From: a virus
Reading direction: 5' to 3' (one strand)
DNA: 43,172 nucleotides
IMG/VR virus record: IMGVR_UViG_3300020202_000128
Span: 1 to 43,172 of that record
Shown here: positions 58-43,123 of the stretch, piece after piece
How the letters are laid out: each line of letters begins with the position of its first letter
Position numbering within the stretch: position 1 is the stretch's first letter
The notes under the pieces: model-generated
The model's database searches: none
The model's input: only the letters and a program-made list of their open reading frames with translations
Told to the model about the DNA's origin: nothing
Translations under genes and position numbers: made by a program

Positions 58-432
58 GTGGGCCGCCCCCGAACCCCGTCGAACGTCTTGGAACTGCGGG
101 GTTCCTTCAAAACACACCCCGAAAGACGGCGCGAGGACCTCGCCGGCGTGGGCGCATTCAACCCGATGCCGCCGCCAGACCTGCTCGCGAGCCTGGTCCC
201 TTACTGGAAGAAGATCGTCGACCAGATAAACCCGGTGGTGCTCACCGCCAGCGACGTGAGCTCGGTCTCCGTGATGGCGCGCATCCTGTGTCAGTTCGAG
301 CTCACCGGGGATCTGCAGCACGCAAAAGAGCTGCGGCAGTGGTTCGCACAGTTCGGCATGACGCCGGTCGGCCGCACGAAGATCGCAGCACCGAAGAAGG
401 GGCCCGGCGGCAATCCATACGCTGACGCTTGA
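58..432 (+). CDS. Terminase small subunit, P27 family
   Basis: Probable DNA-recognition subunit of the packaging motor, which binds phage DNA and hands it to the large subunit. It is 124 aa, a usual length for P27-type small terminases, with a basic N-terminus beginning MGRPRTP and a helical middle. The GTG start at 58 has TAGGAG six bases upstream. The stop overlaps the next start (TTGA), so the two terminase genes are translationally coupled. The call rests on family resemblance and on the position immediately before terL. Confidence 0.85.
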   Translation: MGRPRTPSNVLELRGSFKTHPERRREDLAGVGAFNPMPPPDLLASLVPYWKKIVDQINPVVLTASDVSSVSVMARILCQFELTGDLQHAKELRQWFAQFGMTPVGRTKIAAPKKGPGGNPYADA

Positions 433-2114
433 GCGTGCAATCGCACGTTGCGGCGGGCGAGAAGTACGCCCGCGACGTCATTGCGGGCCGGATCCCGGCC
501 AGTAAGTGGACGAGATTGGCGTGCGAGCGCCACTTCGAGGACAAGAAACGCTCTCGAACCAAGGCGTTTCCGTACAAATTCGACGCCGAAAAGGGCGAGC
601 GCTTCTGCCGGTTCGCTCAGCTACTGCCTCACATCAAAGGCCGCTGGGCGCGACCGGACCCTAAAAAGCCGGCGGCGAACTTCATCCGGTTCGAAGGCTG
701 GCAGAGTTTCATCGGAATCAGCCTGTACGGATGGGTGCACAAGCGCTCGGGCCGTCGCCGATTCCGAAAAGCGTCTATCTACCTGCCGAGAAAGAACGGC
801 AAGTCGACACTCGCCGCGACGATCGGCCACTTCATGGCCTGGAAGGATGGGGAGGTCGGCGCCGAGGTGTACTCAGGCGCGACGACGGAAAAGCAGGCCT
901 GGGAAGTGTTCGGGCCGGCTCGGCTCATGGCGCTACGCACGCCGGCGATGTGCGAGGGCCTCGGCATCGAGGTCAACGCGCAGTCCCTCATCCGAGAAAG
1001 TGACGCTTCGAAGTTCGAGCCGATCATCGGCAAGCCCGGTGACGGCGCTTCGCCTCACTGCTCGATCACGGACGAGTACCACGAGCACCAGACCAGCGAA
1101 CAATTCGACACCATGCTCACTGGCATGGGTGCCCGCGAGCAGCCGCTCGCGCTGATTATCTCGACCGCCGGCGACAACCTGGCGGGTCCGTGTTACGACG
1201 ACTGGCTGACGATTCGGAAGATCCTCGAGCGCGTCATCGAAGACGGCGACGATCATTTCGGAATTATCTACACCGTCGACGAGGAAGACGACTGGACGAG
1301 CGAGCTCGCGCTACGCAAGGCGAATCCTAACTACGGGATCAGCGTCGGCGAGGAATTCCTGCAGCAGCAGCAGCGCGACGCGATCAACAACGCGCGCAAG
1401 CAGGGCACGTTCAAGACGAAGCATCTGAACGTCTGGGTTCAGGCGCGCGATGCGTACATCAACATGCAGCGATGGGCCGAGTGCTTCGATCCGGCGCTAC
1501 GCATGGAAGAGCTGCGCGGGAAGCCCTGCTTTGTCGGGATGGACCTCGCGAGCAAGGTCGACTTGGCCTCGCTCAATCTGATGTTTTCTCTCGATGACGG
1601 TCACTTCGCGACGTTCTCGAAGCACTATCTACCCGACGAGACGGTGCAAGAGCCGGAAAACCAGCACTACCGCGGGTGGGCGAAGGACGGTTGGCTCACG
1701 GTTACCGAGGGCAACATCATCGACTTCGGGCGGATCTTCGACGACATCCTCGAGATAAACAGCGTTTTCGGTATTCAGGAGCTCGCGTACGACCCCGCTC
1801 AGGCAACGAAGCTCGTCACCGAGCTGCAGGCCGAGGGCATCACGTGCGTCGAACTACGCCCGACGGTGCTCAACTTCTCGGAGCCGATGAAGCTCATCGA
1901 GGCGCACATCCGTAACCGGACCCTCGCGCACAACGGCGATCCGGTCACCACCTGGGCGCTGTCGAACGTGGTCGCGAAGGCGGACGCGAAGGACAACGTC
2001 TACCCGCGCAAAGAGCGGCCCGAGAAAAAGATCGACCCCTTTGTCGCGATGTGCGCCGCGATGGCGCGCGCGTCGACCGCGCCCGCGGCGGTCAAATCAT
2101 TTTGGGAGCACTGA
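429..2114 (+). CDS. terL: Terminase large subunit (ATPase/nuclease)
   Basis: Packaging motor: its ATPase drives DNA into the prohead and its nuclease cuts concatemers. It is 561 aa. A Walker A-like motif LPRKNGKST lies at about residues 119-127 and a Walker B-like acidic pair in ITDEYHEH at D215/E216. The RNase-H-like nuclease domain begins around GMDLASKVD with D372. This is the HK97-type (Terminase_1) arrangement. The TTG at 429 overlaps the terS stop; a GTG two codons later is an alternative start. It abuts the portal gene with no gap. Confidence 0.95.
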   Translation: MSVQSHVAAGEKYARDVIAGRIPASKWTRLACERHFEDKKRSRTKAFPYKFDAEKGERFCRFAQLLPHIKGRWARPDPKKPAANFIRFEGWQSFIGISLYGWVHKRSGRRRFRKASIYLPRKNGKSTLAATIGHFMAWKDGEVGAEVYSGATTEKQAWEVFGPARLMALRTPAMCEGLGIEVNAQSLIRESDASKFEPIIGKPGDGASPHCSITDEYHEHQTSEQFDTMLTGMGAREQPLALIISTAGDNLAGPCYDDWLTIRKILERVIEDGDDHFGIIYTVDEEDDWTSELALRKANPNYGISVGEEFLQQQQRDAINNARKQGTFKTKHLNVWVQARDAYINMQRWAECFDPALRMEELRGKPCFVGMDLASKVDLASLNLMFSLDDGHFATFSKHYLPDETVQEPENQHYRGWAKDGWLTVTEGNIIDFGRIFDDILEINSVFGIQELAYDPAQATKLVTELQAEGITCVELRPTVLNFSEPMKLIEAHIRNRTLAHNGDPVTTWALSNVVAKADAKDNVYPRKERPEKKIDPFVAMCAAMARASTAPAAVKSFWEH

Positions 2115-4054: not shown

Positions 4055-4077
4055 CCACTCACACGGAGTAGAAAACC

Positions 4078-7662: not shown

Positions 7663-8194
7663 TCCGATCGAGGTCTCGGGCCTCGCTGAGCTGCGCGAGA
7701 CGCTGCTGAAGCGCCTCCCGGAGTCCCTGCAGGGCAAGGCCTCGCAGGCGGCCCTGACCAGAGCCGCACGCCCGATCGTCGATGCTGCGAAGGCCAAGGC
7801 GCCTACGCGCATGGTCGGACCGGTTCAGCCGGGCAAGCAGGCCCGCGGGCGCCTGCGCGACTCAATCAAGTCGTGGCGAAACCGCGAGAGTACGCGGACC
7901 TATGAGTCGCGCTACATCGGCGTGACCGCTCGAGCTTACTACTGGCGCTGGATTGAATTCGGCCGCGGCACCATCGAGGCGACGAAGTCACTCGGCACGG
8001 TCATCAAGGGGTTTTTCGGCAAGACGATCAAGGCGGTGCCCGCCCGGCCGTTCCTGCGCCCGGCCTTCGAGGAGAACGCCGCGCGCGCGATCGAGATCGT
8101 CCGGCAGTCGCTCGGACCTGCGATCGAGCGCGTCGCCGAGCGCGCCCGCCGCCGGAATATTCGAAGTCTCGCGAAGAAGATCACGGGGTTCTAA
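7655..8194 (+). CDS. Tail-completion protein, HK97 gp10-like
   Basis: 179 aa from the ATG at 7655, which overlaps the head-closure gene by eight bases. The N-terminal helix (VSGLAELRETLLKRLP), AAKAKAP segment and YWRWIEFG motif are typical of HK97 gp10-type proteins at the head-tail interface. The C-terminal third is unusually arginine-rich (RARRRNIR). A TTG at 7637 would add six residues but has no better ribosome site. Confidence 0.85.
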   Translation: MPDPIEVSGLAELRETLLKRLPESLQGKASQAALTRAARPIVDAAKAKAPTRMVGPVQPGKQARGRLRDSIKSWRNRESTRTYESRYIGVTARAYYWRWIEFGRGTIEATKSLGTVIKGFFGKTIKAVPARPFLRPAFEENAARAIEIVRQSLGPAIERVAERARRRNIRSLAKKITGF

Positions 8195-8554
8195 ATGGCC
8201 GTTGCCACTGTCCGAGCCGTGCTGATTGCTTCGGCTCCAGTGACCGCGCTCGTCCCCGCGACGCGCATCGAGCCCTTGCGGCGGACGCAGTCCCTCGCGG
8301 TGCCGGCGATCTCGCTGCAGAGGATCTCCGAGACCCCATTCCCACACCTGCGCAGTAGCGCTGGTCTAACTATCAATTCTGTGCAGCTGGATATCTGGGC
8401 AATCGGATACACGGCGGCGAAAGCTATCGCGGACGCATGCCGTTCGGCTCTCGAAGCCGCAACGCATGAATTCGTAGGTGAATCGGACGGGTACGAACCG
8501 GAAACCGACCCGGAGCTGTACCGCATCACGCAAACGTGGTCGGTCTTCACGTAA
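8195..8554 (+). CDS. Tail terminator-like protein, DUF3168
   Basis: 119 aa with the DUF3168 pattern: an N-terminal helix ending ALVPATRIEPLRRTQ, P-A-I-S-L after it, a central VQLDIWA strand, and a C-terminal YRITQTWSVF strand. Proteins in this slot cap the tail tube at the head end. The ATG directly follows the upstream stop. Confidence 0.83.
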   Translation: MAVATVRAVLIASAPVTALVPATRIEPLRRTQSLAVPAISLQRISETPFPHLRSSAGLTINSVQLDIWAIGYTAAKAIADACRSALEAATHEFVGESDGYEPETDPELYRITQTWSVFT

Positions 8555-8569
8555 TCAGGAGCGACTCTC

Positions 8570-9214
8570 ATGACTCAGCAGGCGGCCAAACAGGCCTACT
8601 TGAGTGTTTCCACGGCGGAGGCTGCCGCCGACACGATCACGGGCATTTCGGCGGCGAACCCCGGAGTCGTGACCGCAGCGTCCCATGGCATCGCCGACGG
8701 CGCGATCGTTCGCATCACGGGCGTGCTGGGCATGCTGCAGGTGAATAACCGGGCGCTCGTGGTCGACAACCCCGCGGCTAACACCTTCGAGCTGAAGGGC
8801 GAGGACACCTCCGTACATACGCCGTATGCGTCCGGCGGCCAGGCTTTCGCGCAGACGATGACCGAAGTCTCGTATTGCAGGGTACTGGGGCCTGGTTTCA
8901 ACGGCGAGGCGCCGGACGTGGACGTGAGCCACCTGCGTTCGCTCGAAAACGAGACGCTGCTCGGCATGAACGACCCCGGCACGCTCGACTTGCAGCTGTG
9001 GTATCCGTCCGTCGTGGACACGAGCCACGCCCGCCTGCGCGCGCTGAAGCGCTCGGGCGCCGCCGCCGCGTTCTCGATCACGCTCGCAAGCGGGCAGATC
9101 GCGGCCTTCATGGCTTCGGTGAAGTCTTTCACCCTTGAGCCGCTCAATAAGGACGGTGCCGTCGGCGGTACTTGCAGCCTGCGCCTGCGCGCGGGCGAGT
9201 CGTGGTTCGCATGA
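8570..9214 (+). CDS. Major tail tube protein
   Basis: 214 aa, placed between the tail terminator and the chaperones, where the tail tube protein is always found. It starts with ATG at 8570 behind AGGAG. The body is beta-rich, with an early ITGISAANPGVVTAASHGI segment of the type seen in tube proteins carrying an added small domain, and a C-terminal GTCSLRLRAGESWFA strand. The stop overlaps the next ATG. Confidence 0.85.
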   Translation: MTQQAAKQAYLSVSTAEAAADTITGISAANPGVVTAASHGIADGAIVRITGVLGMLQVNNRALVVDNPAANTFELKGEDTSVHTPYASGGQAFAQTMTEVSYCRVLGPGFNGEAPDVDVSHLRSLENETLLGMNDPGTLDLQLWYPSVVDTSHARLRALKRSGAAAAFSITLASGQIAAFMASVKSFTLEPLNKDGAVGGTCSLRLRAGESWFA

Positions 9215-9543
9215 GCGTCCTCGACAAGATTGCACAGCGTCGGTCGACGGCCATCAAACTTGCGAGCCTGCCGGACGTCGCGGTGTTCGTGCGCGCCCTC
9301 ACGGCGGCCGAGTTTATCGACATGGGTGAGCGTGCCATCAAGCACGAGGGCCGCCTCGCCAGGAAGGCGATCGAAATGGAGACCGCGCTCGTCGATGAGA
9401 ACGGTCAGCCATTGCTCGCGAAGGGCGAGGGGCAAGCGTTCATGGAGCGCATTGCCGCCGCCGATTATTTGGCGATCGACCGCGCGCTCGACGCGGTGAA
9501 CAACCTCAATCCCGCGACGCTGGAGACCGCCGAAAAAAACTGA
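9211..9543 (+). CDS. Tail assembly chaperone (lambda G analogue)
   Basis: 110 aa, short form of the tail chaperone that keeps the tape measure soluble while the tube polymerises. The ATG at 9211 overlaps the tube-protein stop. The last codons GAA-AAA-AAC-TGA contain the slippery heptamer that redirects some ribosomes into the -1 frame. Size, position and frameshift all match the lambda G/GT arrangement. Confidence 0.88.
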   Translation: MSVLDKIAQRRSTAIKLASLPDVAVFVRALTAAEFIDMGERAIKHEGRLARKAIEMETALVDENGQPLLAKGEGQAFMERIAAADYLAIDRALDAVNNLNPATLETAEKN

Positions 9544-13968: not shown

Positions 13969-14363
13969 TGCGCGTCACGAACTGGCGCGACAACCTGCAG
14001 AGGGTTTTCGACGCCGCCCACGGCCAGCCCTTCCGCTGGGGCTTCCATGATTGTTTTCAGTTCACCGCGCGCTGCGTGGCCGCGGTCAGCGGGTACGACG
14101 GCCGGATCCTCTTCCCCCGATACACCACCAAGCGCGAAGCGCTGGCGTTGCTCGAGCAGGAGGGCGGGGCGCGGGGAATTCTCATCAAGGCGCTGGGTGA
14201 GCCCGTGCACGTCTCGCGGGCAGGGGTAGGGGACGTGGTGCTGATCGACATGGGCCGAGGGTTTCAGCCGGCAATCTGCATGGGCCGTGAGTGCTTCGCA
14301 CCAGGCCGGCGCAAGCTCCAGCCCTATCCGACGCTGCGCGCTGTCGCTGCCTGGGTGCTCTGA
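13968..14363 (+). CDS. NlpC/P60-like tail protein (lambda K position, DUF6950)
   Basis: 131 aa. The FRWGFHDCFQFTA block has the HDC signature, with C29 as the likely nucleophile. A later segment, GDVVLIDMGRG, is typical of NlpC/P60-fold tail proteins. Such proteins sit at the tail tip and may cut peptidoglycan during DNA entry. It overlaps both neighbours by one base (TGATG). Confidence 0.78.
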   Translation: MRVTNWRDNLQRVFDAAHGQPFRWGFHDCFQFTARCVAAVSGYDGRILFPRYTTKREALALLEQEGGARGILIKALGEPVHVSRAGVGDVVLIDMGRGFQPAICMGRECFAPGRRKLQPYPTLRAVAAWVL

Positions 14364-16702
14364 TGCCTCAGGCCGTACCGTTCATCGTCGCGGGTGCCCG
14401 CGCGCTCGCGCGCGTGGGCGTGCAGCTGCTGAAGGTGGGGGCGATGACCCTCATCCAGAAGGCGCTCACCAAGCGCCCTGGCCAGGGCATGACGCCGCTG
14501 AACGTCACGGCTCGCTCGACGATCGCCTCTCGAAAGATCATTTGGGGCACCGTGCGCGCCGGCGGTGCGCTGCTCTTCGTCAAGACGTCGGGCACGAACA
14601 ACAAGTATCTCTGGTACGTGGTCGCCTACGCTGGGCACCAGTGCACCGCACTGAAGGACCTCTACCTCGACAAGTTCAAGATCGCGGCCGCGGACATCAA
14701 TGGCACGACGGGCGCGGTCTCGACGGCCTCGATGGACGGCAAGCTGAAATGCTGGGACCACCTCGGCACCCAGGCGCAAGCCGTCGACTCGACGCTCGAT
14801 ACGGAGTTCACCCAGTGGACCAGCAACCACCGGTTGCGGGGTATCTGCTACCGCGTCATCCGGTTCGAGCGTAGCGACAAGGCGTTCCCCACCGGAGCGC
14901 CAGAGAGCTGCTCGAGCATCGTCGACGGGGCGAAACTGTACGACCCGCGGCTTGATTCCACGAACGGCGGGGCGGGCACGCACCGCAGGACCGACCCTCA
15001 GACCTGGGCCTTCAGCAGCAACCCGGCGCTTGTCCTGCGCTGGTTCCTGACCGGCGGGTCGGTGGTGAACGATCAGGCGACGCGGCTCGTCCGCTACGGC
15101 CTCCGGGAGAGCGACGACCGGATCCCTGACGACTACACGATCGCGGCCGCGAACATCTGCGACCAGTCGCTGAGCGGCGGCAACGCGCCGCCCTCCGGCG
15201 CCCAGTCCCGTTACACCTGCAATCTCGAGGTGTCCTGCGACGAGATCCGCCGCGAGATCATCGAGAAGATTCTCGACACTATGGGGGCGACCGGCCTCCC
15301 GTGCGTACATGGCAAATGGCGCATGTGGGCCGCGCAATACGACGCCCCGAGCCATACCTTCGATCAGAACGACATCTGCGAGGGCCTCGATGTCGAGGAC
15401 ACCACGGGCGACGAGGAGCGAAAGAACCAGATCTCGGCGGCCTTCGTCGACGCCACGAAGGATTACACCTGGCAGACCACGAAGCCGCGCACGAATGCGG
15501 CCTACGTCACCCAGGACAACGGCGAGGAGCACTTCGACGAGATCAGCCTGCAGGGCGTGACGAACGAGTACGCCGCCCAGCGCCTGGCCGAGCTCGCCCT
15601 GCGACGCAATCGGCAGATGCGCCGGGTTCGCATCCCGTTCAAGCGCTGCGGTCTGGCCATCGCCCCGCACGAGACTTTCACGCTCGACTATCCGCGCTAC
15701 GGATGGTCCGGCCGGGTGTTCCGCTGCGTTGTCGCCCGCGAGATCGAGTACAACGAAGAGGGCGGAATGATTTGCTGGGTGACCGCGACCGCGGAAGCCT
15801 CCAGCGTCTACACCGACCTCGTGACCGCCGACTACACGACCGGCACCAGCGTCACGAATTCTCTGCAGTCGGAGCCGCCCGACGCGCCGACGAACCTGAC
15901 AGCCGTAGCTCTCGCCCGTGCAATTGAATTCCGGTGGACGCTTGGGGAGTTCTGGCGGCAGAACGGCATCGTCGAACTGATCCGCCACACCGCGTCGACG
16001 CCGTCCTCCAGTGGCACCGTCGTATGGCGCGGCCGCGGCGAGCGCGCGGTCGTTCAGATCGAAAACTCCACCGTGTACTACTGGTGGGTGCGCCTCTCCA
16101 CGATCAGTGGCCAGACAAGCGCCACGGATCCAGCGAGCACCGGCCTTGCGGCCGCGGCCATGCGTGACGAACGACTGGTTGTTGACCCGAATTTCGAGCT
16201 GGCCACTGATCAGACCTACTGGCTATTCCGGGACGCCGTCGGAAACGCCGCGACGAATATCTCCATCGTTGCATCCGGTGGTGTTCAAGGCGGGGTGCTG
16301 CAGCTGGTCGGCGACAGTACGAACAAATTCGCGTGGAACTTGCGATCCGATGTCGTGCCCATCATCACTGGCCAGACGGGGCGGGTGCGCCTCCGCTGGC
16401 GACGAACGAACACTGTTAATTCTGCGAACCCGACGGACGCAATCTTTTCCGTCTCCGTCGACACCACGGACGGCGGTGTACCGCCGACATCTTCAGTGAA
16501 CGACGGGATTCTGACGAAGACGAGGGCGCAGATCGCAGCGGTGACCGTGAACGAATGGCAAGAGGAGGAGTTCACATTCACTGTCGCGAACGTGGCGAAA
16601 AGCTCACCGCAATTGCCATACCTCGCGTTCTCCATCCTGATGGTCGCCGCCTGCACGAGCGGAACAATCCAGATCGATCAGGTGCAGGCGCACCTCAACT
16701 AG
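14363..16702 (+). CDS. Host specificity/central tail tip protein (lambda J-like)
   Basis: 779 aa from the ATG at 14363 (TGATG overlap). An N-terminal hydrophobic helix (residues ~5-35) precedes the hub. The middle shows the tail-tip block EYAAQRLAELALRRNRQ and the following HETFTLDYPRYGWSGRVF region. A fibronectin-like domain begins at PPDAPTNLTA (~residue 505). The last ~170 residues form a separate beta-sandwich (starts VVDPNFELATDQTYW), probably receptor-contacting. Shorter than lambda J (1132 aa). Confidence 0.88.
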   Translation: MPQAVPFIVAGARALARVGVQLLKVGAMTLIQKALTKRPGQGMTPLNVTARSTIASRKIIWGTVRAGGALLFVKTSGTNNKYLWYVVAYAGHQCTALKDLYLDKFKIAAADINGTTGAVSTASMDGKLKCWDHLGTQAQAVDSTLDTEFTQWTSNHRLRGICYRVIRFERSDKAFPTGAPESCSSIVDGAKLYDPRLDSTNGGAGTHRRTDPQTWAFSSNPALVLRWFLTGGSVVNDQATRLVRYGLRESDDRIPDDYTIAAANICDQSLSGGNAPPSGAQSRYTCNLEVSCDEIRREIIEKILDTMGATGLPCVHGKWRMWAAQYDAPSHTFDQNDICEGLDVEDTTGDEERKNQISAAFVDATKDYTWQTTKPRTNAAYVTQDNGEEHFDEISLQGVTNEYAAQRLAELALRRNRQMRRVRIPFKRCGLAIAPHETFTLDYPRYGWSGRVFRCVVAREIEYNEEGGMICWVTATAEASSVYTDLVTADYTTGTSVTNSLQSEPPDAPTNLTAVALARAIEFRWTLGEFWRQNGIVELIRHTASTPSSSGTVVWRGRGERAVVQIENSTVYYWWVRLSTISGQTSATDPASTGLAAAAMRDERLVVDPNFELATDQTYWLFRDAVGNAATNISIVASGGVQGGVLQLVGDSTNKFAWNLRSDVVPIITGQTGRVRLRWRRTNTVNSANPTDAIFSVSVDTTDGGVPPTSSVNDGILTKTRAQIAAVTVNEWQEEEFTFTVANVAKSSPQLPYLAFSILMVAACTSGTIQIDQVQAHLN

Positions 16703-16799: not shown

Positions 16800-17162
16800 A
16801 TGCCACAAGAAACGCTGCTTGGGGGTCTAATGGGAGAGGTGAAGCGTTCACCGTACACATCCGTTACCGCGGGGGTGTGCCTCGTGGTGGTCGTTTGGCT
16901 GGCCTTCAACAAGGCCGACGCCTCTGATACCAAATCCTTGAGCGCGCAGATCAGCGAGCTCGGGAGAACCGTCAAGCGGGACTCGGTGAATGCGGAGCTG
17001 CGCGACATTCGCAGCGAGCTCTTCGAATTGAACCTGCGCATCACCTCGCAGGAACGCGAAGGCACTGCGGTCGACATTTTGCTACTGCGCCGGCGCGACG
17101 AGCTGCTTGCCCAGCAGCGACGCCTCGAATCGATGCTGCAGGCCATGGACGCCGGGCAATGA
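16800..17162 (+). CDS. Single-span membrane protein with coiled coil, lysis cassette
   Basis: 120 aa. One membrane segment at about residues 19-36 (YTSVTAGVCLVVVVWLAF) is followed by a charged helical tail (residues ~45-118) of clear coiled-coil character. It lies directly before the endolysin and overlaps it (ATGA). Holin, pinholin-like or accessory lysis protein are all possible; no family recognised. An in-frame ATG at 16830 is an alternative start. Confidence 0.7.
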   Translation: MPQETLLGGLMGEVKRSPYTSVTAGVCLVVVVWLAFNKADASDTKSLSAQISELGRTVKRDSVNAELRDIRSELFELNLRITSQEREGTAVDILLLRRRDELLAQQRRLESMLQAMDAGQ

Positions 17163-17626
17163 ACGACGACGTCGTGCTGTCCGCGCACTTTAACCTGCGC
17201 GAGTTCGTCTCATCGCAGACCGCCGCCCGCCTGGGGCGGGAGATCATTCCGCCGCCCGACGTGCTCGCAAACCTGCACCGACTCTGTCAGCAGCTGCTCG
17301 AGCCGATCCGCGTGAAGCTGGCCCGCCCGATCATCATCACCTCTGGCTATCGGCCGAAGTGGCTGAACCAGGCGATCGGCGGAAGCCTCACCAGCGCGCA
17401 CATGACCGGCAATGCGGCGGACGTGAAGGTCGTCGGCATGTCGCCGTGGACGTTCTGCCGATGGGTGCAGCAGCACGCGCCGGGCGAGGGATGGCCCATC
17501 GATCAATGCATTCAGGAATTCGGGCAGTGGACGCACCTCGGCACCGCGCTGGCGCCGCGTGGCCAATACCTCACCGCCAAGCATGTCGACGGCCGCACGA
17601 CCTACCTACAAGGAATCCACCAATGA
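17159..17626 (+). CDS. Endolysin, peptidase M15 family
   Basis: 155 aa zinc peptidase of the M15A (Peptidase_M15_3) type that cuts peptide bonds in peptidoglycan. Motifs: TSGYRPKWLN at 61-70, SAHMTGNAADV with zinc ligands H81 and D88, and QWTHLG with H126. There is no signal peptide, so it needs a holin to leave the cytoplasm. The start overlaps the upstream membrane gene and the stop overlaps the holin candidate. Confidence 0.88.
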   Translation: MNDDVVLSAHFNLREFVSSQTAARLGREIIPPPDVLANLHRLCQQLLEPIRVKLARPIIITSGYRPKWLNQAIGGSLTSAHMTGNAADVKVVGMSPWTFCRWVQQHAPGEGWPIDQCIQEFGQWTHLGTALAPRGQYLTAKHVDGRTTYLQGIHQ

Positions 17627-29844: not shown

Positions 29845-30470
29845 CGCACGCACTCCTCGGCTGAGATGAACTCGCGAGCGGCTTGCAGATGAGCGAGGCA
29901 CATTACGTGCAGCCGATCACCATGCCATTCGCACGCGCAGCGACCGTTGCGCAAATCCTTCGGTAGCCCCCCCTCTGTGCGCGGCTGCGAGAGATGGGCG
30001 AGAAACGTGTCCACATCCTCGTGTCCGTCTTCAATGCCTAGCTCGTACAGTGCTTCCCCCAATTCCTTGAGGTCATTGGTTCCGTCAGCACCACCCAAGT
30101 AGGTTACGGCGCCCGTCTGCGCGTTTTCCTCGCAGTCATCGGCCACGTGGAATGCAGCGTGCAGCAGCTTGCGCAATGCAGGCCACGGCTCCCCCTCTGT
30201 GCGCGGCTGCGAGAGATGGGAGATGAAGGCCAAGACCCGTTCCACGTAGTCCCTTGGGACCTCAACGTCCGGACTGTTGGGCCTGTACCACTTGTGCATT
30301 TCCAGGCTGAAGCGCGATTGTTCGATGATCTCCCCGGCCTCCCTGGAGGTCGGCTCCCAGAGACGAAAGTCGAGTAGGGTGAGCAAATCGGCCAGTGAGT
30401 CGGAATGCCTCCATGCTCGCGGGGCAATCTCGCGCAGCTCTTGCAGCCGCTCCCGTGTAACTTCGGTCAT
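29835..30470 (-). CDS. Hypothetical early protein with internal repeat
   Basis: 211 aa. Two copies of a HLSQPRTEG segment (residues ~85-93 and ~158-166) mark repeated units; the C-terminal part has CACEWHGDRLHVMCLAH and ends EECVRCP. Mostly acidic and helical. It overlaps the next gene by ten bases and the previous by four. No family assigned. Confidence 0.68.
   Translation of the reverse strand: MTEVTRERLQELREIAPRAWRHSDSLADLLTLLDFRLWEPTSREAGEIIEQSRFSLEMHKWYRPNSPDVEVPRDYVERVLAFISHLSQPRTEGEPWPALRKLLHAAFHVADDCEENAQTGAVTYLGGADGTNDLKELGEALYELGIEDGHEDVDTFLAHLSQPRTEGGLPKDLRNGRCACEWHGDRLHVMCLAHLQAAREFISAEECVRCP
29969..30220. repeat. Direct repeat, two 30-base copies
   Basis: Identical 30-base copies at 29969-29998 and 30191-30220, 222 bases apart (74 codons, in frame). 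They encode the repeated HLSQPRTEG segment. Confidence 0.8.
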
Positions 30471-30733
30471 GAGCGGCTCCGCAGGAAGACGATGACCGCC
30501 GCCGTGATGAGGGCCGCGACGATCGCGAATCGCCGCCAGAACCGACGCCAGTCGCGCAGGCCAACGAGCGAGACGGTCGGCACCGTTACCCAGCTTCCGC
30601 CATCGAGCCGCACCAAGCAGAAGTCATCGGGCGCTTCGTAGTCGGCGGCGATCGAGTCCACGGTGCCAGTCTTTCCTGCGACCGGGCCATAGAGCACCTT
30701 CACGCGGTCGCCGACCTTGATCTCGGCGCTCAT
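30467..30733 (-). CDS. KOW-like domain fused to a membrane segment
   Basis: 88 aa. Residues ~5-25 (IKVGDRVKVLYGPVAGKTGTV) fit the KOW motif seen in NusG and ribosomal proteins, with a small beta-barrel continuing to ~55. Then comes a basic linker (RDWRRFWRRF) and a C-terminal membrane span (AIVAALITAAVIVFL). A KOW module tethered to the membrane is unusual. ATGA overlaps with both neighbours. Confidence 0.65.
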   Translation of the reverse strand: MSAEIKVGDRVKVLYGPVAGKTGTVDSIAADYEAPDDFCLVRLDGGSWVTVPTVSLVGLRDWRRFWRRFAIVAALITAAVIVFLRSRS

Positions 30734-31578: not shown

Positions 31579-31710
31579 GATATCGGGAAGACCCCTAAGT
31601 TGCGAATTGCGACACGCTTCCTGCGGCATTAAGGACCGAGCTTGACGACCGGTAGAAGAGCCCAGGACTATTGCTCGGCCGGGCAGAACAACAACAAGAA
31701 TGAGGCGACC

Positions 31711-31989
31711 ATGTTCTTCATCCTCTGGATAGGCTTCAGCATCATCGCGGCCGTAGTAGCCGGCAACAAAGGAAGATCCGCCGTGGGATTTTTCTTTCTG
31801 GCGCTGCTTCTCTCGCCATTGATCGGGCTCATTGCCGCCTTCGCGGCCGCACCTAACAAACCGAACGTGGAATCTGCACAGCTACAATCGGGTGAGTCGA
31901 AGAAGTGCCCGTACTGTGCCGAGCTCATAAAAGCTGAGGCGATGGTCTGCAAGCATTGTGGACGAGATCAAACGTCGCCCGCGAGCTAG
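31711..31989 (+). CDS. Membrane protein with C-terminal zinc ribbon
   Basis: 92 aa from the ATG at 31711 with GAGG upstream. Two membrane spans (~2-18 and ~24-46), then CPYCAELIKAEAMVCKHCG with C66/C69 and C80/C83. It is the only plus-strand gene between PL and the repressor gene, outside both lytic operons. That makes it a candidate for expression from the prophage (a moron, perhaps for exclusion of other phages). An upstream frame extension to 31642 is less likely coding. Confidence 0.68.
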   Translation: MFFILWIGFSIIAAVVAGNKGRSAVGFFFLALLLSPLIGLIAAFAAAPNKPNVESAQLQSGESKKCPYCAELIKAEAMVCKHCGRDQTSPAS

Positions 31990-32062: not shown

Positions 32063-32521
32063 TCAAACTTTTTTTCGACTCGATTCCTCGATGTCGACTA
32101 TCTCCCCGAGCACCTTGCCCTCGATCGCTATTCGTTGACCTCGCGTCAGGCTGAAGAATCGTTCGGGTGTGATTCGCTCAAATGGCCATTCAGCCAATGC
32201 GGCTTGCTCGGCGATTTCTCGAGCGAGGCGGGGGCTGAACGCCTGTACCTCAACTCCGAGTTCCTTCGCAAACTGACTGGCCCGCTCCGCATTCAGGGAA
32301 CGCAGTCCGGCGAACAGCTGCGAGACCACTCCCTGTGTGAAGCCGTGCTCTGCTGCGAACTCCGCCTGGGAGCGTTTCCAATGCTTCGACCAAAGCGCCC
32401 GTAGGAGTTCTCCCTCCCGCTTCGCGACCTCTTTTGGGACGCCTTCCCCAGGACCGGGGCGTTTTTTTCTCGTTGCCACCGCCGAAAGGTCGGCGATTGC
32501 TATTTGAGCCTCAACGAGCAT
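32063..32521 (-). CDS. CI-like repressor, short XRE type
   Basis: 152 aa from the ATG at 32521. A basic N-terminal arm (ATRKKRPGPGEG) is followed by an XRE helix-turn-helix at ~51-95 (SQAEFAAEHGFTQGVVSQLFAG) and a C-terminal ~55 residues with no S24/LexA autoprotease motif. It diverges from the Cro-like gene across the operators, the standard immunity layout. Its ATG (32519-32521) lies inside the centre of the left PR operator. The loss of a cleavage domain implies induction by a route other than RecA-driven self-cleavage. Confidence 0.8.
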   Translation of the reverse strand: MLVEAQIAIADLSAVATRKKRPGPGEGVPKEVAKREGELLRALWSKHWKRSQAEFAAEHGFTQGVVSQLFAGLRSLNAERASQFAKELGVEVQAFSPRLAREIAEQAALAEWPFERITPERFFSLTRGQRIAIEGKVLGEIVDIEESSRKKV

Positions 32522-32554
32522 GCTATTGACGGCGACCAATAGCGCCGCTATTAA
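32510..32554 (+). promoter_or_regulatory. Rightward early promoter PR with operators
   Basis: -35 TTGACG at 32526-32531, 17-base spacer, -10 TATTAA at 32549-32554, so transcription should begin near 32561. Operator B, CAATAGC-GCC-GCTATTA (core 32538-32552), fills the spacer. Operator A overlaps the -35 through its right half GCTATTGAC (32522-32530); its left half (32510-32518) is degenerate. Same geometry as PL. Confidence 0.78.
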
Positions 32555-32561
32555 TAGGCCG

Positions 32562-32774
32562 ATGAAGCTCAGAGAGTATTTGTCGGAGGAAGGAATCACC
32601 CAGTCGGAGTTCGCCCGACGAATGAAGGTCACGCAAGGAATGGTGTGGCAGTGGGTCAGCGGCCGCCGCCGCGTGTCCGCGGAGCAGGTTCGTCCGATGG
32701 AGCTCGCGACCGATGGAAAAGTGACTGGCCACGACGTTAGGCCGGATCTTTATCCGCGGCAAGACGCGGCCTGA
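32562..32774 (+). CDS. Cro-like YdaS-family HTH protein
   Basis: 70 aa from the ATG at 32562. The sequence EYLSEEGITQSEFARRMKVTQGMVWQWVSGRR read in parts (helix, TQSEFARR, turn, GMVWQWVSG) is the YdaS/Cro pattern, ending with the typical VTGHDVRPDLYP. It diverges from the repressor. There is no convincing Shine-Dalgarno site, and the predicted mRNA start almost coincides with the ATG, so translation may be leaderless. Confidence 0.85.
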   Translation: MKLREYLSEEGITQSEFARRMKVTQGMVWQWVSGRRRVSAEQVRPMELATDGKVTGHDVRPDLYPRQDAA

Positions 32775-36969: not shown

Positions 36970-37430
36970 GCGCGGGGAAGGTGACGCCGGGAGTGTGGAC
37001 GTGGTGGACGAGCAATAGTTGGCGGCGCCTGTTTGCAGAGAACGGCAGCCGGCGCCATTCCGTGCTGATGCCCGTTACATGCCACGACGGGCATCCGGAT
37101 ATCTCCGTGACGCAGGCCGATATGGATCTGATCGCCGAGGCCGGCACGGTCCACAACGAGACCGGCAAGACGCCGCGCCAGCTCGCGTCCGACTACGACG
37201 CCCTCTCCCATCAGCGCGACGAGTTGCGGGAGGAGAACGAGCGGCTGAACGAAAAGGACCGCATGAAGACGCACGAGATCAACGTGCTCACACCGGAGAA
37301 TCGTGGCTTGCGGGAGGCGCTGATAGAGGCTCGCACCTTCGTCGATAGACACAGCGAGTCTTGGTGCAGCAGCGGACAAGAACTGCTCAGGCGCATCGAC
37401 GAAGCCCTCAACAGCAGAGGTGGCCAATGA
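36966..37430 (+). CDS. Ead/Ea22-like protein with coiled coil
   Basis: 154 aa. A central coiled coil (SHQRDELREENERLNEKDRMK) and the C-terminal REALIEARTFVDRHSESW...RRIDEALN are typical of phage Ead/Ea22-type early proteins. ATGA overlaps with both neighbours. Function not established in the family. Confidence 0.62.
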   Translation: MSAGKVTPGVWTWWTSNSWRRLFAENGSRRHSVLMPVTCHDGHPDISVTQADMDLIAEAGTVHNETGKTPRQLASDYDALSHQRDELREENERLNEKDRMKTHEINVLTPENRGLREALIEARTFVDRHSESWCSSGQELLRRIDEALNSRGGQ

Positions 37431-37861
37431 ACGCAGCCGCCGACGTTGTCGTATCCAAGCCCCGCGCACCGCGGCGCCTCGACGGCCGCGAGCGCTCGAT
37501 AATCGATTCCGAACTCGAACTATGGGGAGAATGGTGGGAGCAAAACCCCATCAACGGATACCCGAGCGCCTCGGCTCTGGTGGCGTTCATCGAAGGCGCC
37601 GGGGGTCGTCGCCTCGGCAGTCGCGAGCTTCACAAGGGCATGCCCAATGCCGTCTACTGGATTCACCAACGCTGGTTGCAGCTCGAGTCCTGCTTTCAGG
37701 TGGTCATCTGGCTGCACTTCGTTCCACGTGTCGACCAGGAAACCGGCCGGTGTCGCAGCGACGAGGAGAACGCGCAGCTGCTCGACATCAGCGTGGATGC
37801 CTACCGCATGCGCCTGACGCGTGCCCGATACGCATACATTGGGGTCCCGTGCCCTCTGTAG
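37427..37861 (+). CDS. Q-like late antitermination protein
   Basis: 144 aa. The C-terminal half (VVIWLHFVPR, then EENAQLLDISVDAYRMRLTRARYAYIG) resembles the helix-turn-helix of phage Q/antiterminator proteins and sigma region 4. It is the last gene before a terminator and the late genes, exactly the place of Q. It would load onto RNA polymerase near the late promoter and let it pass the terminator at 37935-37960. Confidence 0.65.
   Translation: MNAAADVVVSKPRAPRRLDGRERSIIDSELELWGEWWEQNPINGYPSASALVAFIEGAGGRRLGSRELHKGMPNAVYWIHQRWLQLESCFQVVIWLHFVPRVDQETGRCRSDEENAQLLDISVDAYRMRLTRARYAYIGVPCPL
37720..37735. promoter_or_regulatory. parS-like half site, site 3
   Basis: GTTCCACGTG at 37721-37730, then diverging (TCGAC). 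Weaker than the first two sites; it lies in the Q-like gene. Confidence 0.25.
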
Positions 37862-37895: not shown

Positions 37896-37934
37896 CGTAG
37901 GTTCCGCCTCTGCGCTCAGCGGAGTCTGACACCG

Positions 37935-37960
37935 AAGCCCGCCTGAGCAGCGGGCTTTTT
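37935..37960 (+). terminator. Terminator ahead of late genes (tR'-like)
   Basis: AAGCCCGC (37935-37942), 7-base loop, GCGGGCTT (37950-37957) and a T-run to 37960. It would end a short leader RNA unless read through with the help of the Q-like protein. Confidence 0.85.
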
Positions 37961-38105: not shown

Positions 38106-39581
38106 ATGCAGCAGACGCAAGCCTCAACCCTGCGCCGGCGACTGCTGGGCCTCGCGCTCGGCCTCATTGCCGCCCTGGGCATCAACGCGCCCACGGGCGC
38201 AGCCTTCGTCAACATCTCGGGCGCAGGCAGGCACGTCATCGAGGCGGCGTCCGAGGACTCAGGCCCCACCCGCTACACGGCCACGCACCACGTGCGGTGC
38301 GATGCCAGCGGATCCGGCAACGGCCTCACGTACGAGACGGCCTGGACGCCGACTCAGGCGAAGGCCGCCGTCGCCGGCAATATCGTGCAGTGGCACCCGG
38401 GCTCGGGTGGCCTCTGCCAGTTCGCACCCACGGGCAATGATGACGGGGCCTGGGCGCCGACGAACTCCGGCACATCCGGCAGCCCGATCATCCACTACGC
38501 CTCGTATGCGGCGACGTTCCTTTCGACGCCGACGAGCAACGCGAACCGCACGGAGCTCTCGCACTCCGGCAACGGAACTTCGAACGCGCAGCGCAGCGCG
38601 ATCATCGACAGTGGCGGGCAATCGAACGTCATCTTCGACGGGTTCCTCGTCAACTGGGCGAACGCGAAGCCGGCCATCGATGGCGGCTGGTTCAACATCG
38701 GCGGCCAAGCTGGTGGGTATGAGAACGTTCAGATTCTCAATACCTACATTCAGGCCGCCGAGGACACGATCGGGGGCAACTACCCCGCGGTGTGGGTCGA
38801 GGGTGTCGACGGGTTCGTCTTCTCGGGCAACGTAGTTAGGGACCTCTCGAGCTCGACCGACACGAGCCAGAACGTCGCCGCCGTCATCACGTACGGCTGC
38901 GAAAACATGGTGGTGAGCTATAACACGCTCATCAACGTGCAGACCGGGTTCTACATCAAGGGCTCGGCCACCGGAATGCAGAATTCCGGGACGATCAGCT
39001 ACAACCTGATCCAGGACGTGACGCGCGGCATGCGCATCGCGGACGTGAGCGCGACAACGCGCCTCGTGGTGAGTTTCAACCTCATCACCGACTTCAGCGT
39101 TTACGGCATCCTCATCACGTCGAATGGTGCTGACGACGGTCGGATGACTGACCTCTTCAGCAACACGATTGCACGTACCTCGGGCACGCCCGGCGCCCTG
39201 ATCTCGGTCAACGAGACCACGGGCACCACGATCCGCATCCGCGACAATGTGCTGTTCAACGACAACGACTCGACGGGTTTCTTCGACGCCGGCGAGTACT
39301 CGCAGCCCTGGCAGGTGCTCGACTATCAGTGGCACGTGCAAAACCCGGGCACGTTTCAGGCCTCGTACAACGGTAGCAACGCGACATCACTGGCGGCCTG
39401 GCGAACGCTCACGGGTGCGGAAGCCAATTCGACCGTCACGGCCACAATTCCCTTCGTCGACGCCGCGAACGATGACTTCGCAGTCACGGGCGCACCGACG
39501 ACGGCATCGAGCACTGGCGGCCCTGTGGGCTGCTGCAACGGCGCCGAACTTCCAGGATTCAAGCTGGTGTCAGGACTATGA
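38106..39581 (+). CDS. Parallel beta-helix protein with signal peptide (fibre or spike-like)
   Basis: 491 aa. N-terminus has a basic start and hydrophobic core (RRRLLGLALGLIAALGIN), a typical Sec signal to ~residue 32. From ~190 to ~400 the repeated pattern NVQILNTYIQ, GFVFSGNVVRD, NMVVSYNTLINV, TISYNLIQDV, LVVSFNLITD, TDLFSNTIA marks a right-handed beta-helix, as in tailspikes and pectin lyases. Two cysteines near residues 60 and 100 would suit the periplasm. First gene of the late operon; weak ribosome site. Confidence 0.75.
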   Translation: MQQTQASTLRRRLLGLALGLIAALGINAPTGAAFVNISGAGRHVIEAASEDSGPTRYTATHHVRCDASGSGNGLTYETAWTPTQAKAAVAGNIVQWHPGSGGLCQFAPTGNDDGAWAPTNSGTSGSPIIHYASYAATFLSTPTSNANRTELSHSGNGTSNAQRSAIIDSGGQSNVIFDGFLVNWANAKPAIDGGWFNIGGQAGGYENVQILNTYIQAAEDTIGGNYPAVWVEGVDGFVFSGNVVRDLSSSTDTSQNVAAVITYGCENMVVSYNTLINVQTGFYIKGSATGMQNSGTISYNLIQDVTRGMRIADVSATTRLVVSFNLITDFSVYGILITSNGADDGRMTDLFSNTIARTSGTPGALISVNETTGTTIRIRDNVLFNDNDSTGFFDAGEYSQPWQVLDYQWHVQNPGTFQASYNGSNATSLAAWRTLTGAEANSTVTATIPFVDAANDDFAVTGAPTTASSTGGPVGCCNGAELPGFKLVSGL

Positions 39582-40288
39582 AGCGGCTGCTATCGATCCT
39601 GCTGCTGTGCCTGCTGCCGTTTTCGGCGCAGGCGCAGATCGCGCTCGGCGCTCAGGCCGACTCGGTCACGGCGAGCACCACGACCGGCACGTGTACGGTG
39701 AGCCCGACGGCGGGCTCGCTTCTCGTCGTCGCCTGGGTGCTGCGCGGTGGCAACTCGCTCACGAGCATCACCGACGACCGCGGCCAGACCTACACGGCTG
39801 TCACGACGCCGATCCTCGACGCCGCGCGCGCAGGCATCCACTACGTCGCGAACGCCGCGTCAGGATCGACGACGGTCACCGTGCAGGCCGGCGCGACCGA
39901 AACGGTCATCATCAATTGCTCGTATTGGACCGGTGCGGCGACTAGCTCGGTCGTCGAGGCCTTCGACAGCATCGCGAACCCTTCGGGGCTTTCTCATCCG
40001 CACGGCGCGACGGGCGTCTCGGCGCAGTCCGGCGACCTCATCGTCACGGTGTGCGGGCAGAGCTCGACGATTACCGATGAGGTGGTCGCGGCGAACTACA
40101 CCGCGCTTACGATGGCCACGGGCGGCAACAACCGCCACTGGTGGCAGTACCGGCTGGCCGCATCGAGTCTCACCGGCGAGACCGCCCCCTATACGGCGAG
40201 CTCGCATAGCTCGGCCTGCATGATCGGCTCGTTCAACCAAGCCGCCGCCGCCTCCTCGGGGCTCCTACTTCGGAGACGTAGATCGTGA
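39578..40288 (+). CDS. Secreted beta-rich fibre-like protein
   Basis: 236 aa. Signal peptide KRLLSILLLCLLPFSAQAQ with cleavage near residue 20. The body is Ser/Thr/Gly-rich beta-strand, with DRGQTYTAV and NCSYWTGAA blocks as in jelly-roll type domains. It ends ASSGLLLRRRRS, a short hydrophobic patch with four arginines. ATGA overlap with the beta-helix gene and GTGA with the next, so the three are one unit. Confidence 0.7.
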   Translation: MKRLLSILLLCLLPFSAQAQIALGAQADSVTASTTTGTCTVSPTAGSLLVVAWVLRGGNSLTSITDDRGQTYTAVTTPILDAARAGIHYVANAASGSTTVTVQAGATETVIINCSYWTGAATSSVVEAFDSIANPSGLSHPHGATGVSAQSGDLIVTVCGQSSTITDEVVAANYTALTMATGGNNRHWWQYRLAASSLTGETAPYTASSHSSACMIGSFNQAAAASSGLLLRRRRS

Positions 40289-42225
40289 AACACGCCCGCG
40301 CATTGCTTGCTGCGCTGCTCGCCTTCGGCTCGATCAGCACGGCCTGGGCGGAAGTCTGGCATGCCCGCTATGGTGTCGCCGAGACTTTCAATTTCAAGCT
40401 CTACAACGCCGACGGGACGCTCGACGTCGATGAGGCGGATGGCGGCACCGAGGTCTCGCTCTCGTGCAATGAGGGCGCCGAAACCACGGCGACGAATGAC
40501 TTCGCCGACGAGGGCACGTTCTACTCGATCGCCCTGACCGCGGCCGAAATGCAGTGCGAGCGCATTGCGGTCGTGATCGCTGCGACCACGACGGAAGTGT
40601 TCTTCATCCAGACGCACAGCAACGCGTCTGCGATGACCCCGACCGAGGACGTCGACGTTCAGGAGATCGGCGGCGCAGCGGTCAGCACCTCGACCGCACA
40701 GCTCGGCGTGAACGTGGTGAACGCGGGCGGCACGGCATGGGGCTCGGGCGCCATCACGGCGGCCAGCATCGCGACGGACGCTATTGGCGCCGCCGAGATC
40801 GCCAGCGCGGCAATCGCCGCTGATGAAATTGCTGCGGACGCCATCGGATCCTCCGAGATCGCTGCCGATGCCATCGGGGCGAGTGAGCTCGCGAGCGCGG
40901 CGATCGCTGCCGACGAGATCGCAACGGATGCCATTGGCGCCGCGGAGATTGCTGCCGATGCCATTGCGGCCTCGGAAGTGGCAACGGATGCAATTGGGGC
41001 GGCCGAACTCGCTGCGAACGCGATTGGCGCAGCGGAGATCGCCGACGGTGCCATCGACGGGAATACCTACGCGTGCCCGGCCACTGCGGGCGCGATGGCT
41101 GCGCTCGGCATCATCGATTGCGGTACGGCTCAGGCAGCCACCGGAACCACACTACAGCTGCGCGCCGCCGCGGCCTTCGCCGATGACGAGATCATCGGTG
41201 CAACGTGCCTTGTCACGGGTGGGTCGGCAGGTGTGGGTCAGGCGCGCACCGTCTCGGACTACGTCTCGAGCACGGATACCGCGACCGTTGCGACGTGGAC
41301 GACCACGCCGACGGGGACCATCACCTACGTCTGTTTCGGCACCGCCACCGGCTCGAGCGGCTCGGTAACGATCGCCGCCGGCGGCATCACGGCATCAAGC
41401 TTCGCCTCTGGCGCCATCGATTCAGCCGCCATCGCGACGGACGCGATCGGCGCTGCCGAACTCGCTGCTGATGCCATCGGGGCGAGTGAGCTCGCGAGCG
41501 CGGCCATCGCTGCCGACGAGATCGCAACCGACGCCATTGGTGCCGCGGAGCTCGCGGCCGATGCTGTGGGCACGAGTGAGATTGCGACGGACGCCATCAC
41601 CGCGACGGAAGTCGCTGCGGACGCCCTGGGCGCCTCTGAGATTGCGGCGAGCGCCATCGGCTCGAGCGAACTGGCCGACGGCGGCATCACCTCGGCCGAA
41701 TTCGGATCCGGGGCCATCACGGCCACGGTCATTGCGACGGATGCGCTCGGCGCTGCCGAGCTCGCTGCAGACGCGGTGACCGAGGTGCAGAGCGGCCTGG
41801 CGACCTCCTCGGCGCTGTCCACGCTCTCGACCACCATCGGAAGCCCAGCTGGCGCGAGCCTGGCTGCGGATATCGCGGCCATCGAGGACCAGACCGACGA
41901 GCTCGCGGCCTTCATCACGGACGTAGGCGTCAACGGTGCGGGCCTGACGGCGCTGCCCTGGAATGCGGCCTATGACGCCGAGGTGCAGAGCGAAGTGACC
42001 GACGCCCTGAACCTGCTGCTCCTCACCGAGCCGGCGGCCAAGCCCACATGGGGCTCGTCGACGGTGTGGGACGGCATTGCCTGGCTGACAGCCTGGTCGC
42101 GCAACAAGGTCACGCAGTCGACCACGACGAAGACGCTGCGGAACGACGCCGATAACTCGAACCTCGTCACCTGCACGGTCAGCGACGCCGGCGGGGTGTT
42201 CACGCTGAGCGAATGCTCGCCCTGA
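40285..42225 (+). CDS. Repetitive fibre-like protein with signal peptide
   Basis: 646 aa, GTG start with GGAG upstream. Signal peptide to ~residue 22 (LLAALLAFGSISTAWA). Residues ~24-110 resemble the N-terminal domain of phage fibre/BppU proteins. Two tracts (~155-260 and ~365-500) are repeats of the type A-I-G-A-A-E-I-A-x-D, separated by a non-repetitive domain with cysteines. The end (PTWGSSTVWDGIAWLTAW onward) is a separate module. Probable extended fibre; the Sec signal is unexpected. Confidence 0.72.
   Translation: MKHARALLAALLAFGSISTAWAEVWHARYGVAETFNFKLYNADGTLDVDEADGGTEVSLSCNEGAETTATNDFADEGTFYSIALTAAEMQCERIAVVIAATTTEVFFIQTHSNASAMTPTEDVDVQEIGGAAVSTSTAQLGVNVVNAGGTAWGSGAITAASIATDAIGAAEIASAAIAADEIAADAIGSSEIAADAIGASELASAAIAADEIATDAIGAAEIAADAIAASEVATDAIGAAELAANAIGAAEIADGAIDGNTYACPATAGAMAALGIIDCGTAQAATGTTLQLRAAAAFADDEIIGATCLVTGGSAGVGQARTVSDYVSSTDTATVATWTTTPTGTITYVCFGTATGSSGSVTIAAGGITASSFASGAIDSAAIATDAIGAAELAADAIGASELASAAIAADEIATDAIGAAELAADAVGTSEIATDAITATEVAADALGASEIAASAIGSSELADGGITSAEFGSGAITATVIATDALGAAELAADAVTEVQSGLATSSALSTLSTTIGSPAGASLAADIAAIEDQTDELAAFITDVGVNGAGLTALPWNAAYDAEVQSEVTDALNLLLLTEPAAKPTWGSSTVWDGIAWLTAWSRNKVTQSTTTKTLRNDADNSNLVTCTVSDAGGVFTLSECSP
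40867..41553. repeat. Long in-frame duplication inside fibre gene
   Basis: Nearly identical ~84-base segments at 40867-40950 and 41470-41553, 603 bases (201 codons) apart. They are embedded in two tracts of shorter 10-residue-like repeats. Confidence 0.8.
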
Positions 42226-42240
42226 TATAGGAGACGTCCC

Positions 42241-42447
42241 ATGGCCATCGACACTGCTGCGAAGCGCGCTGCTGCGCTCGGCGCTGGTCTGACGCCAGGG
42301 GTTGTGCTCCCGGTTCCTGACGGAACCATCAGCGCGGCTGATCGAGCGTCCCTCGTAGGCGTCTACATGCCGGGGAGCGTGACCATCACGCCCCGCTTCA
42401 CGGTGGGGCTGCGTGCTCGACATTCCTCGGTGCGAGTGCCGCAGTGA
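42241..42447 (+). CDS. Small virion-type protein, unknown
   Basis: 68 aa behind a strong AGGAG. The N-terminal pattern MAIDTAAKRAAALGAG, VVLPVPDGTISAADRASLVGVY is a recurring small phage protein found beside fibre and head genes. No function assigned. Stop overlaps the next start (GTGA). Confidence 0.72.
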   Translation: MAIDTAAKRAAALGAGLTPGVVLPVPDGTISAADRASLVGVYMPGSVTITPRFTVGLRARHSSVRVPQ

Positions 42448-42719
42448 CGATCCCGCTCGTACACCCGTCCGACTCGGCATCGATCCCGCTCGACTGGTCG
42501 GACGTGCTCGGCGATTCGCTGACGCTCTCGAGCGTCACGCATACCCTGCCCGCAGGCCTGACCAAGGTGAGCGAGAGCACGGACACGGCGAACGGTTTGT
42601 CACAGGTGACGGTCTCGGGTGCAACCCATGGCCAGCTGTACCACATACAGGCTGCTGCCACCTTGAGCGACGGGCAGGTGGTGACGCGAGTCATTCCTGC
42701 CCGTGCATTCAACGCCTGA
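42444..42719 (+). CDS. Small beta-sandwich virion-type protein
   Basis: 91 aa, GTG start. The arrangement IPLDWSDVLGD, SVTHTLPAGLTKVSES, GQLYHIQAAATLSDGQ is common in small phage proteins with an immunoglobulin-like beta-sandwich. It overlaps the HNH gene by one base. Confidence 0.7.
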   Translation: MTIPLVHPSDSASIPLDWSDVLGDSLTLSSVTHTLPAGLTKVSESTDTANGLSQVTVSGATHGQLYHIQAAATLSDGQVVTRVIPARAFNA

Positions 42720-43123
42720 TGCCTCGGGCCGCACCGCACCCGTGCTGCCACCCAGGATGCACGACGCTCACGGGAGCGCGCTTCTGCCCTGTGCACGTGC
42801 GCAGCGTGAAGCGAGAGATAGATAGACGCCGAGGAAACTCGGCTGCGCGTGGCTACGACTATGAGTGGCGCAAGCGAAGCAAGGCATATCTGCTATCGCA
42901 CCCACTGTGTGAATGCGACGAATGCAAGGCTGGCGCGCTGAGGGTCACGGCTTCTGAGGTGGTCGACCACATCAAGCCCATAGCCACGCACCCCGAGCTC
43001 AGGCTGACCGAAAGCAACTGGCGAGCGATGTCGAAGGCATGCCACGACAGGCACACCGCACGCACGCAGGCATTCGGTCGAACGAGAGGGGCAGGGCAGC
43101 GGCCTAGCTACCCAGGGCGCTGA
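42719..43123 (+). CDS. HNH endonuclease (packaging-associated)
   Basis: 134 aa. Two N-terminal cysteine/histidine clusters, then the HNH core VVDHIKPI (D83, H84), N100 in TESNW and H109/H112 in CHDRH. HNH proteins next to the terminase assist the specific cutting of cos DNA in HK97-like phages; the terminase genes are the next genes if the ends join. ATG overlaps the previous stop (TGATG). Confidence 0.9.
   Translation: MPRAAPHPCCHPGCTTLTGARFCPVHVRSVKREIDRRRGNSAARGYDYEWRKRSKAYLLSHPLCECDECKAGALRVTASEVVDHIKPIATHPELRLTESNWRAMSKACHDRHTARTQAFGRTRGAGQRPSYPGR

Follow-up and report, generated by a model that had tools for sequence, protein, structure and literature searches.

Three fibre-like genes with export signals

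The window, that is the whole 43,172-base stretch of the viral record IMGVR_UViG_3300020202_000128 in IMG/VR (64% G+C, end repeats not found), carries three adjacent genes on the + strand whose products appear to form a tail-fibre set and each begin with a predicted signal for export through Sec. The open reading frames (ORFs) lie at 38106-39581, 39578-40288 and 40285-42225 and are linked by the four-base overlaps ATGA (39578-39581) and GTGA (40285-40288), as the preliminary description of this DNA had them. It had also called the products a beta-helix protein, a jelly-roll-like protein and a repetitive fibre, types that could each be backed in part. None of the three gave a Pfam match. Protein 1 (491 amino acids, ATG start) is beta-helix-like by eye, its type being read off the sequence, and beta-helix proteins fill the same slot in relatives with signal peptides. 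Protein 2 (236 amino acids, ATG start) is beta-sandwich-like and ends in GLLLRRRRS; its AlphaFold model is poor, with a predicted local distance difference test score (pLDDT) of 48, and contains beta strands. Protein 3 (646 amino acids, GTG start) is a repetitive tail-fibre protein that matches tail-fibre PHROGs (phrog_892, tail fiber, E 4.7e-16, plus others), although these matches may partly stem from the repeats.

Three domains can be distinguished within protein 3, all on the + strand. The mature N-terminal domain (40351..40626, beginning EVWHARYGVAETFNFKLYNADG...) is 91-96% identical in the loci L006, L134 and L135. The middle domain (41104..41361) holds a pair of cysteines (TGC 41206-41208, TGT 41332-41334) and is modelled with a pLDDT of about 85-93 over most of its length; its fold matches in BFVD are to predicted proteins of phages, some of them from tails and fibres (best E about 2e-5). 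The C-terminal fibre domain (42043..42222) carries a second pair, VTC...ECSP. Searches of cultured phages and the PDB with proteins 1-3 returned no useful relatives, the fibre domain had no match in the GTDB genomes, and a PDB fold search with a fragment of protein 3 gave nothing at E <= 0.001.

Signals were scored with a rule-based scorer of our own, which weighs the charge of the n-region, an uncharged h-region and an A-x-A type cleavage site, with a threshold of 9. In 50 kb of the E. coli K-12 genome all 7/7 proteins labelled as exported by the authors reached at least 9 and the cytosolic proteins did not score, but N-terminal membrane helices are picked up too and are not told apart from cleaved signals. 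The Sec signals that had been proposed for the three proteins were borne out at their own start codons, with scores of 11.5, 12.7 and 10.5, respectively. The predicted signal peptides, all on the + strand, span 32 codons in protein 1 (38106..38201; MQQTQASTLRRRLLGLALGLIAALGINAPTGA then AFVN), 19 codons in protein 2 (39578..39634; MKRLLSILLLCLLPFSAQA then QIAL) and 22 codons in protein 3 (40285..40350; MKHARALLAALLAFGSISTAWA then EVWH). The predicted cleavage sites lack a lipobox cysteine. Four other ORFs of the window reach 9 at any start (16800-17162, 30467-30733, 31642-31989 and 32063-32632), all of them short or membrane-protein-like. The loci that share the N-terminal domain of protein 3 (L006, L134 and L135) bear signals as well.

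Predicted signals are shared between neighbouring fibre-cluster genes

Three fibre domains, used to scan IMG/VR, yielded 106 counted loci, 84 after removal of near-copies. The majority of the related fibres have no signal peptide, and among the best 80 relatives of one N-terminal domain (LKQST) only 3 carry one, so that fibre export appears to be rare and not the norm. Fibres with a signal peptide (SP+) were found in L002 (the window), L005, L006, L008, L017, L023, L031, L034, L046, L052, L110 and L122, and a later scan added L134 and L135. Three or four consecutive signal-bearing proteins occur in L005, L006, L008, L023, L034, L046, L052 and L110. The nearest upstream neighbour of the fibre gene has a signal peptide in 11/11 SP+ loci and in 0/62 loci whose fibre lacks one (SP-; p 2.8e-13), or in 12/12 against 0/62 once L135 is added (p about 5e-14). 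These counts include two corrections by hand, to L023 (upstream gene in the wrong frame) and L031 (fibre in the wrong frame); uncorrected, they are 9/10 against 1/63 (p 1e-9).

The signals are not all of one kind. In the L008 cluster two Tat-type signals (MDRRHFLQSAAGLL... and MNRRRFLRNAAGLL...; MDRRHFLQ... and MNRRRFLRN...) stand beside two Sec signals, which suggests that what the clusters share is export and not one type of N terminus. Supported tree branches force at least 3 switches of signal state in one family of fibre N-terminal domains and at least 2 in a second fibre family, where the best tree has four.

In most loci the protein just upstream of the fibre has a conserved C-terminal tail (40240-40285 in the window). 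SP- loci have an IPVFxHHYRQMR-like form, the Microcystis phage L132 has IPVFMNHYLQQGIR, and SP+ loci have LPLLNHYY, LPRISFYLRQRRNR, IPVISFDLRQRRN or GLLLRRRRS. It is perhaps an attachment or oligomerisation peptide.

A homologous unit without signal peptides

The closest view of such a unit in its signal-free state is offered by L003 (IMGVR_UViG_3300020215_000155), which has the same metagenome code as L002, a near-identical copy of the window. It encodes homologues of protein 1 (57% identity) and protein 2 (76%), followed by a fibre that shares the middle domain, in the gene order of the window and upstream of the terminase; its proteins, the protein 1 homologue among them, have no signal peptides. 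The homologues of proteins 1 and 2 start at the predicted mature N termini of the window proteins (mature QIALGAQADSVTAS... against MAITLSGQADSVTAS... in the version without signal). Among the fibres, the start of the SP- protein and the predicted cleavage site differ mostly by 2 residues or fewer, and at most by 7. Apart from the signals, the SP+ and SP- versions are, as far as their sequences tell, the same proteins.

Cysteines do differ between the two versions. Relative to L003, protein 2 has gained three cysteines and lost one, the mature protein having four. In protein 1 four are gained (columns 65, 104, 485 and 486), nine are absent and one is shared; the L003 homologue (8046-9437) has 10 scattered cysteines and none of the new ones of the window. 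The free cysteines of the protein 1 version without signal seem to be gone in the exported one, with new ones instead.

The cysteine pattern of the fibres

The mature SP+ fibres hold 1.34 cysteines per 100 amino acids against 0.45 in SP- fibres (p 5e-7), and two or more are present in 12/12 of the former and 26/72 of the latter. Even and odd cysteine counts stand at 9:3 in SP+ and 13:34 in SP- fibres (p 0.006). Dissecting homologous fibre domains reveals paired cysteine replacements at three sites, confined to SP+ proteins. The middle-domain pair ATC...Y[VTQK]C is found in the window, L006, L008 and L017, all SP+, and in no SP- copy; LGSTQGYW has become CGSTQGYC in L023 and L034; and the C-terminal pair VTC...EC of the window, L005 and L023 corresponds to ATS...GEWS and STS...GEWS in the SP- loci L078 and L059, respectively. 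An SP- copy of this C-terminal domain also occurs in the Microcystis phage L132. The pattern in SP+ fibres is the one expected for disulphides that would be made outside the cytoplasm.

Genomic neighbourhood

The window phage is a lambda-like temperate siphovirus, with terminase, portal, major capsid protein, tape measure, distal tail protein, a J-like tip protein (14291-16702), an M15-type endolysin (17159-17626) and a serine integrase. Downstream of the fibre gene, on the + strand, a fibre-tail adaptor-like protein without signal peptide (42444..42719) matches Pfam Gp77 of the podophage GP4 (PF23148, E 3.4e-10; 40.7 bits against a curated cut-off of 27). Similar adaptors occur in the SP+ contigs L008 and L023, and weakly in L005. 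Next comes an HNH endonuclease (42719..43123, +; PF01844, phrog_144), a terminase neighbour; the terminase large subunit itself is at 429..2114 (+; phrog_9, E 3e-164). In L002 the fibre cluster, adaptor, HNH endonuclease and terminase large subunit follow one another on one contig.

Between the fibre and adaptor genes lies an ORF of 68 amino acids (42241..42447, +), for which neither Pfam nor PHROG gave a match. Its N-terminal 30 residues, MAIDTAAKRAAALGAGLTPGVVLPVPDGTI, are similar to the beginning of a head-decoration-like protein of L005, MALDTAAKRAAALGAGLTPGVILPVPDGEI. The genes directly after the fibre in L005 (8522-9211) and L034 (6831-7454) match the head-decoration family phrog_20658, and that of L134 (2802-3428) seems, by eye, to belong there too. 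Within L046, an SP-bearing beta-helix protein (7046-8692) has a weak match, below the cut-off, to the depolymerase C-terminal domain PF25692.

Directly 5' of the fibre cluster is a small regulator-like ORF (37427..37861, +; longest open frame from 37361) with a weak match to phrog_5285 (E 0.01), shared with the L034 gene of the same slot. In this slot L003 has a match to a phage transcriptional activator family (E 3e-4) and L023 to an antitermination Q-like family (E 0.04). A pattern scan placed a terminator-like hairpin between the regulator and the fibre cluster (37934..37958, +), only suggestive given that hairpins are no commoner in the region than in shuffles; a promoter scan found none.

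A model for exported fibre sets

The predicted export of complete fibre sets is, we consider, a real and recurrent state, because the concordance within clusters, the N-terminal offsets, the cysteine pattern and at least five switches in two families all point to it. For the set in the window, export is strongly supported. The PHROG matches, the middle-domain folds, the adjacent adaptor and homologues that mostly lack signals speak for the proteins being parts of fibres. The preliminary description had raised the possibility that this is something other than a standard fibre set. In homology, gene order and position the set is ordinary, since versions without signal are the majority in related phages and the unit adjoins a fibre-tail adaptor and the terminase; what stands of the idea is the re-routing of the entire set to export. 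The unusual feature is this export and not the fibre set itself.

The reading that we favour, with about even confidence, is of a periplasmic, disulphide-bonded fibre set that would be mounted on virions at lysis. The three genes would encode a fibre and two adhesin- or enzyme-like partners, probably made late. Sec would carry them across the inner membrane of the host and signal peptidase would trim them to a mature N terminus like that of the relatives without signal. Folding and disulphide bonding would take place in the periplasm, where a pool would build up apart from the cytoplasm, in which heads and tails are put together. Virions would meet this pool at or after lysis and the fibres attach, probably via their N-terminal domain, which is unchanged, and the gp77-like adaptor, which is cytoplasmic. 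The N-terminal domains, which are the usual attachment site of fibres, are unaltered after predicted cleavage, and the SP+ depolymerase-like protein of L046, its match below the cut-off, also speaks for the virion side. In T4, fibres join late, onto otherwise finished particles (PMC3185693); here they would be mounted from a different compartment. The earlier proposal that the proteins are exported late and possibly added to virions after lysis is consistent with all these findings; its export signals hold, while late expression and mounting are what we infer.

Several observations weigh against this model. The signal calls rest on a home-made scorer. The p-values overstate independence and are optimistic, because the loci share ancestry even with near-copies removed. 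The upstream partners show no difference in cysteine density between SP+ and SP- loci (p 0.36), and protein 1 has an odd number of cysteines (5). In L031 the gene two upstream of the fibre scores below the cut-off, and outside the counted set there is a possible exception to the concordance, L037 (MW202621), with SP-like ORFs just upstream of a fibre without signal. This siphovirus from Manatee Spring, which comes from a collection other than that of the counted loci, has two such ORFs at 3415-4933; the second, incompletely annotated, overlaps the start of the fibre gene and could be either misframed or a genuine exception. The place of proteins 1-3 in virions or periplasm is one that we infer from sequence. 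Finally, the literature searched yielded no tailed phage whose fibres are exported, and so no direct precedent there for mounting out of a second compartment.

Other readings of the signals

The main alternative, less likely than this model, accepts that the signals are real and takes the proteins for exported non-virion products: adhesins, lectins or depolymerases, soluble or on the cell surface, that infected cells or lysogens would release, with roles such as receptor masking, superinfection exclusion or the loosening of capsule or biofilm. A temperate phage with a serine integrase and a terminator-like hairpin just 5' of the cluster would suit such a role, and exported phage proteins are known beside fibre genes, namely the Cor lipoprotein (PMC4936722) and Lom (PMC12309495). 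These two, however, are membrane proteins and not fibres. Moreover, homologues without signal and in the same order are the majority and could leave the cell only by lysis, the N-terminal domain of the fibre is kept intact, and the cluster adjoins the adaptor and the terminase.

It is improbable that the hydrophobic N termini are retained helices, serving oligomerisation or anchoring in the virion and not export. Our scorer is blind to the difference between cleaved and uncleaved segments, but the A-x-A type sites coincide with the starts of the homologues without signal, one cluster has Tat-type signals in place of Sec ones, and the cysteines match an oxidising compartment. Even less probable is a host for which export of the fibres has to do with some other step, be it delivery to an envelope of non-standard type or phage release by a way other than ordinary lysis. 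The signals are of the short A-x-A form, which is usual for diderm bacteria and was the point in favour of such a host; the M15-type endolysin gene speaks for ordinary lysis.

A coincidence of hydrophobic N termini in Ala/Leu-rich genes of high G+C can be rejected, since composition-matched random draws reach 9 in only 0.3%, 1.5% and 0.4% of trials for proteins 1, 2 and 3 and the clusters are concordant (12/12 against 0/62), and an artefact of frame or start codon is ruled out by SP+ proteins in many contigs, aligned with the starts of their homologues.

What periplasmic mounting would mean

In the textbook view tail fibres are cytoplasmic products, assembled before lysis. We propose, tentatively and with confidence just short of even, that some tailed phages complete their receptor-binding apparatus in a second compartment, in that Sec or Tat would export whole sets, disulphides would form in the periplasm and mounting would follow only at lysis, lineages having changed repeatedly between cytoplasmic and exported fibres. 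If true, such a repeated switch of entire clusters to export would amount to a new way of assembling tailed phages, make disulphide-bonded fibres possible and offer an immediate way of testing whether virions can be finished outside the cytoplasm. For annotation it is a warning that proteins with signal peptides in phage late regions are not necessarily host-conversion genes.

Comparison with known systems

We found no description of an exported tail-fibre set in the open-licence full-text literature, which does not by itself prove novelty; the reports of phage signal peptides that we found concern endolysins, Cor, Lom or filamentous phages. Among virion proteins, the coat proteins of filamentous phages are made as Sec precursors that signal peptidase cuts (works cited in PMC3185693). 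Their coat is assembled at the membrane during extrusion, however, and these are not tailed phages. The signal-arrest-release endolysins of P1, 21 and phiKMV are tailed-phage proteins that pass through Sec (PMC4640515), but they are lysis enzymes and not structural. Closer in genomic position are Cor (PMC4936722) and Lom (PMC12309495), phage-coded proteins with an export signal near tail-fibre genes; they differ in being a small lipoprotein or an outer-membrane beta-barrel acting on the host surface, and are not fibre homologues. Neither hallmark showed in proteins 1-3, which have no lipobox cysteine where cleavage is predicted and no Pfam match.

The likeness to gp77 of GP4 lies in the window protein at 42444-42719, above the curated cut-off of PF23148; GP4 is a podophage, whereas the window phage is a lambda-like siphovirus with a tape measure and a J-like tip. 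The Microcystis phage Mvi-Yong1342-1 (PP496355, L132) resembles the window in an upstream protein that ends in IPVFMNHYLQQGIR and in an LKQST-type fibre with a C-terminal domain of the same kind, and differs in the absence of signal peptides, in a single cysteine in its fibre and in an N-terminal domain unlike that of the window.

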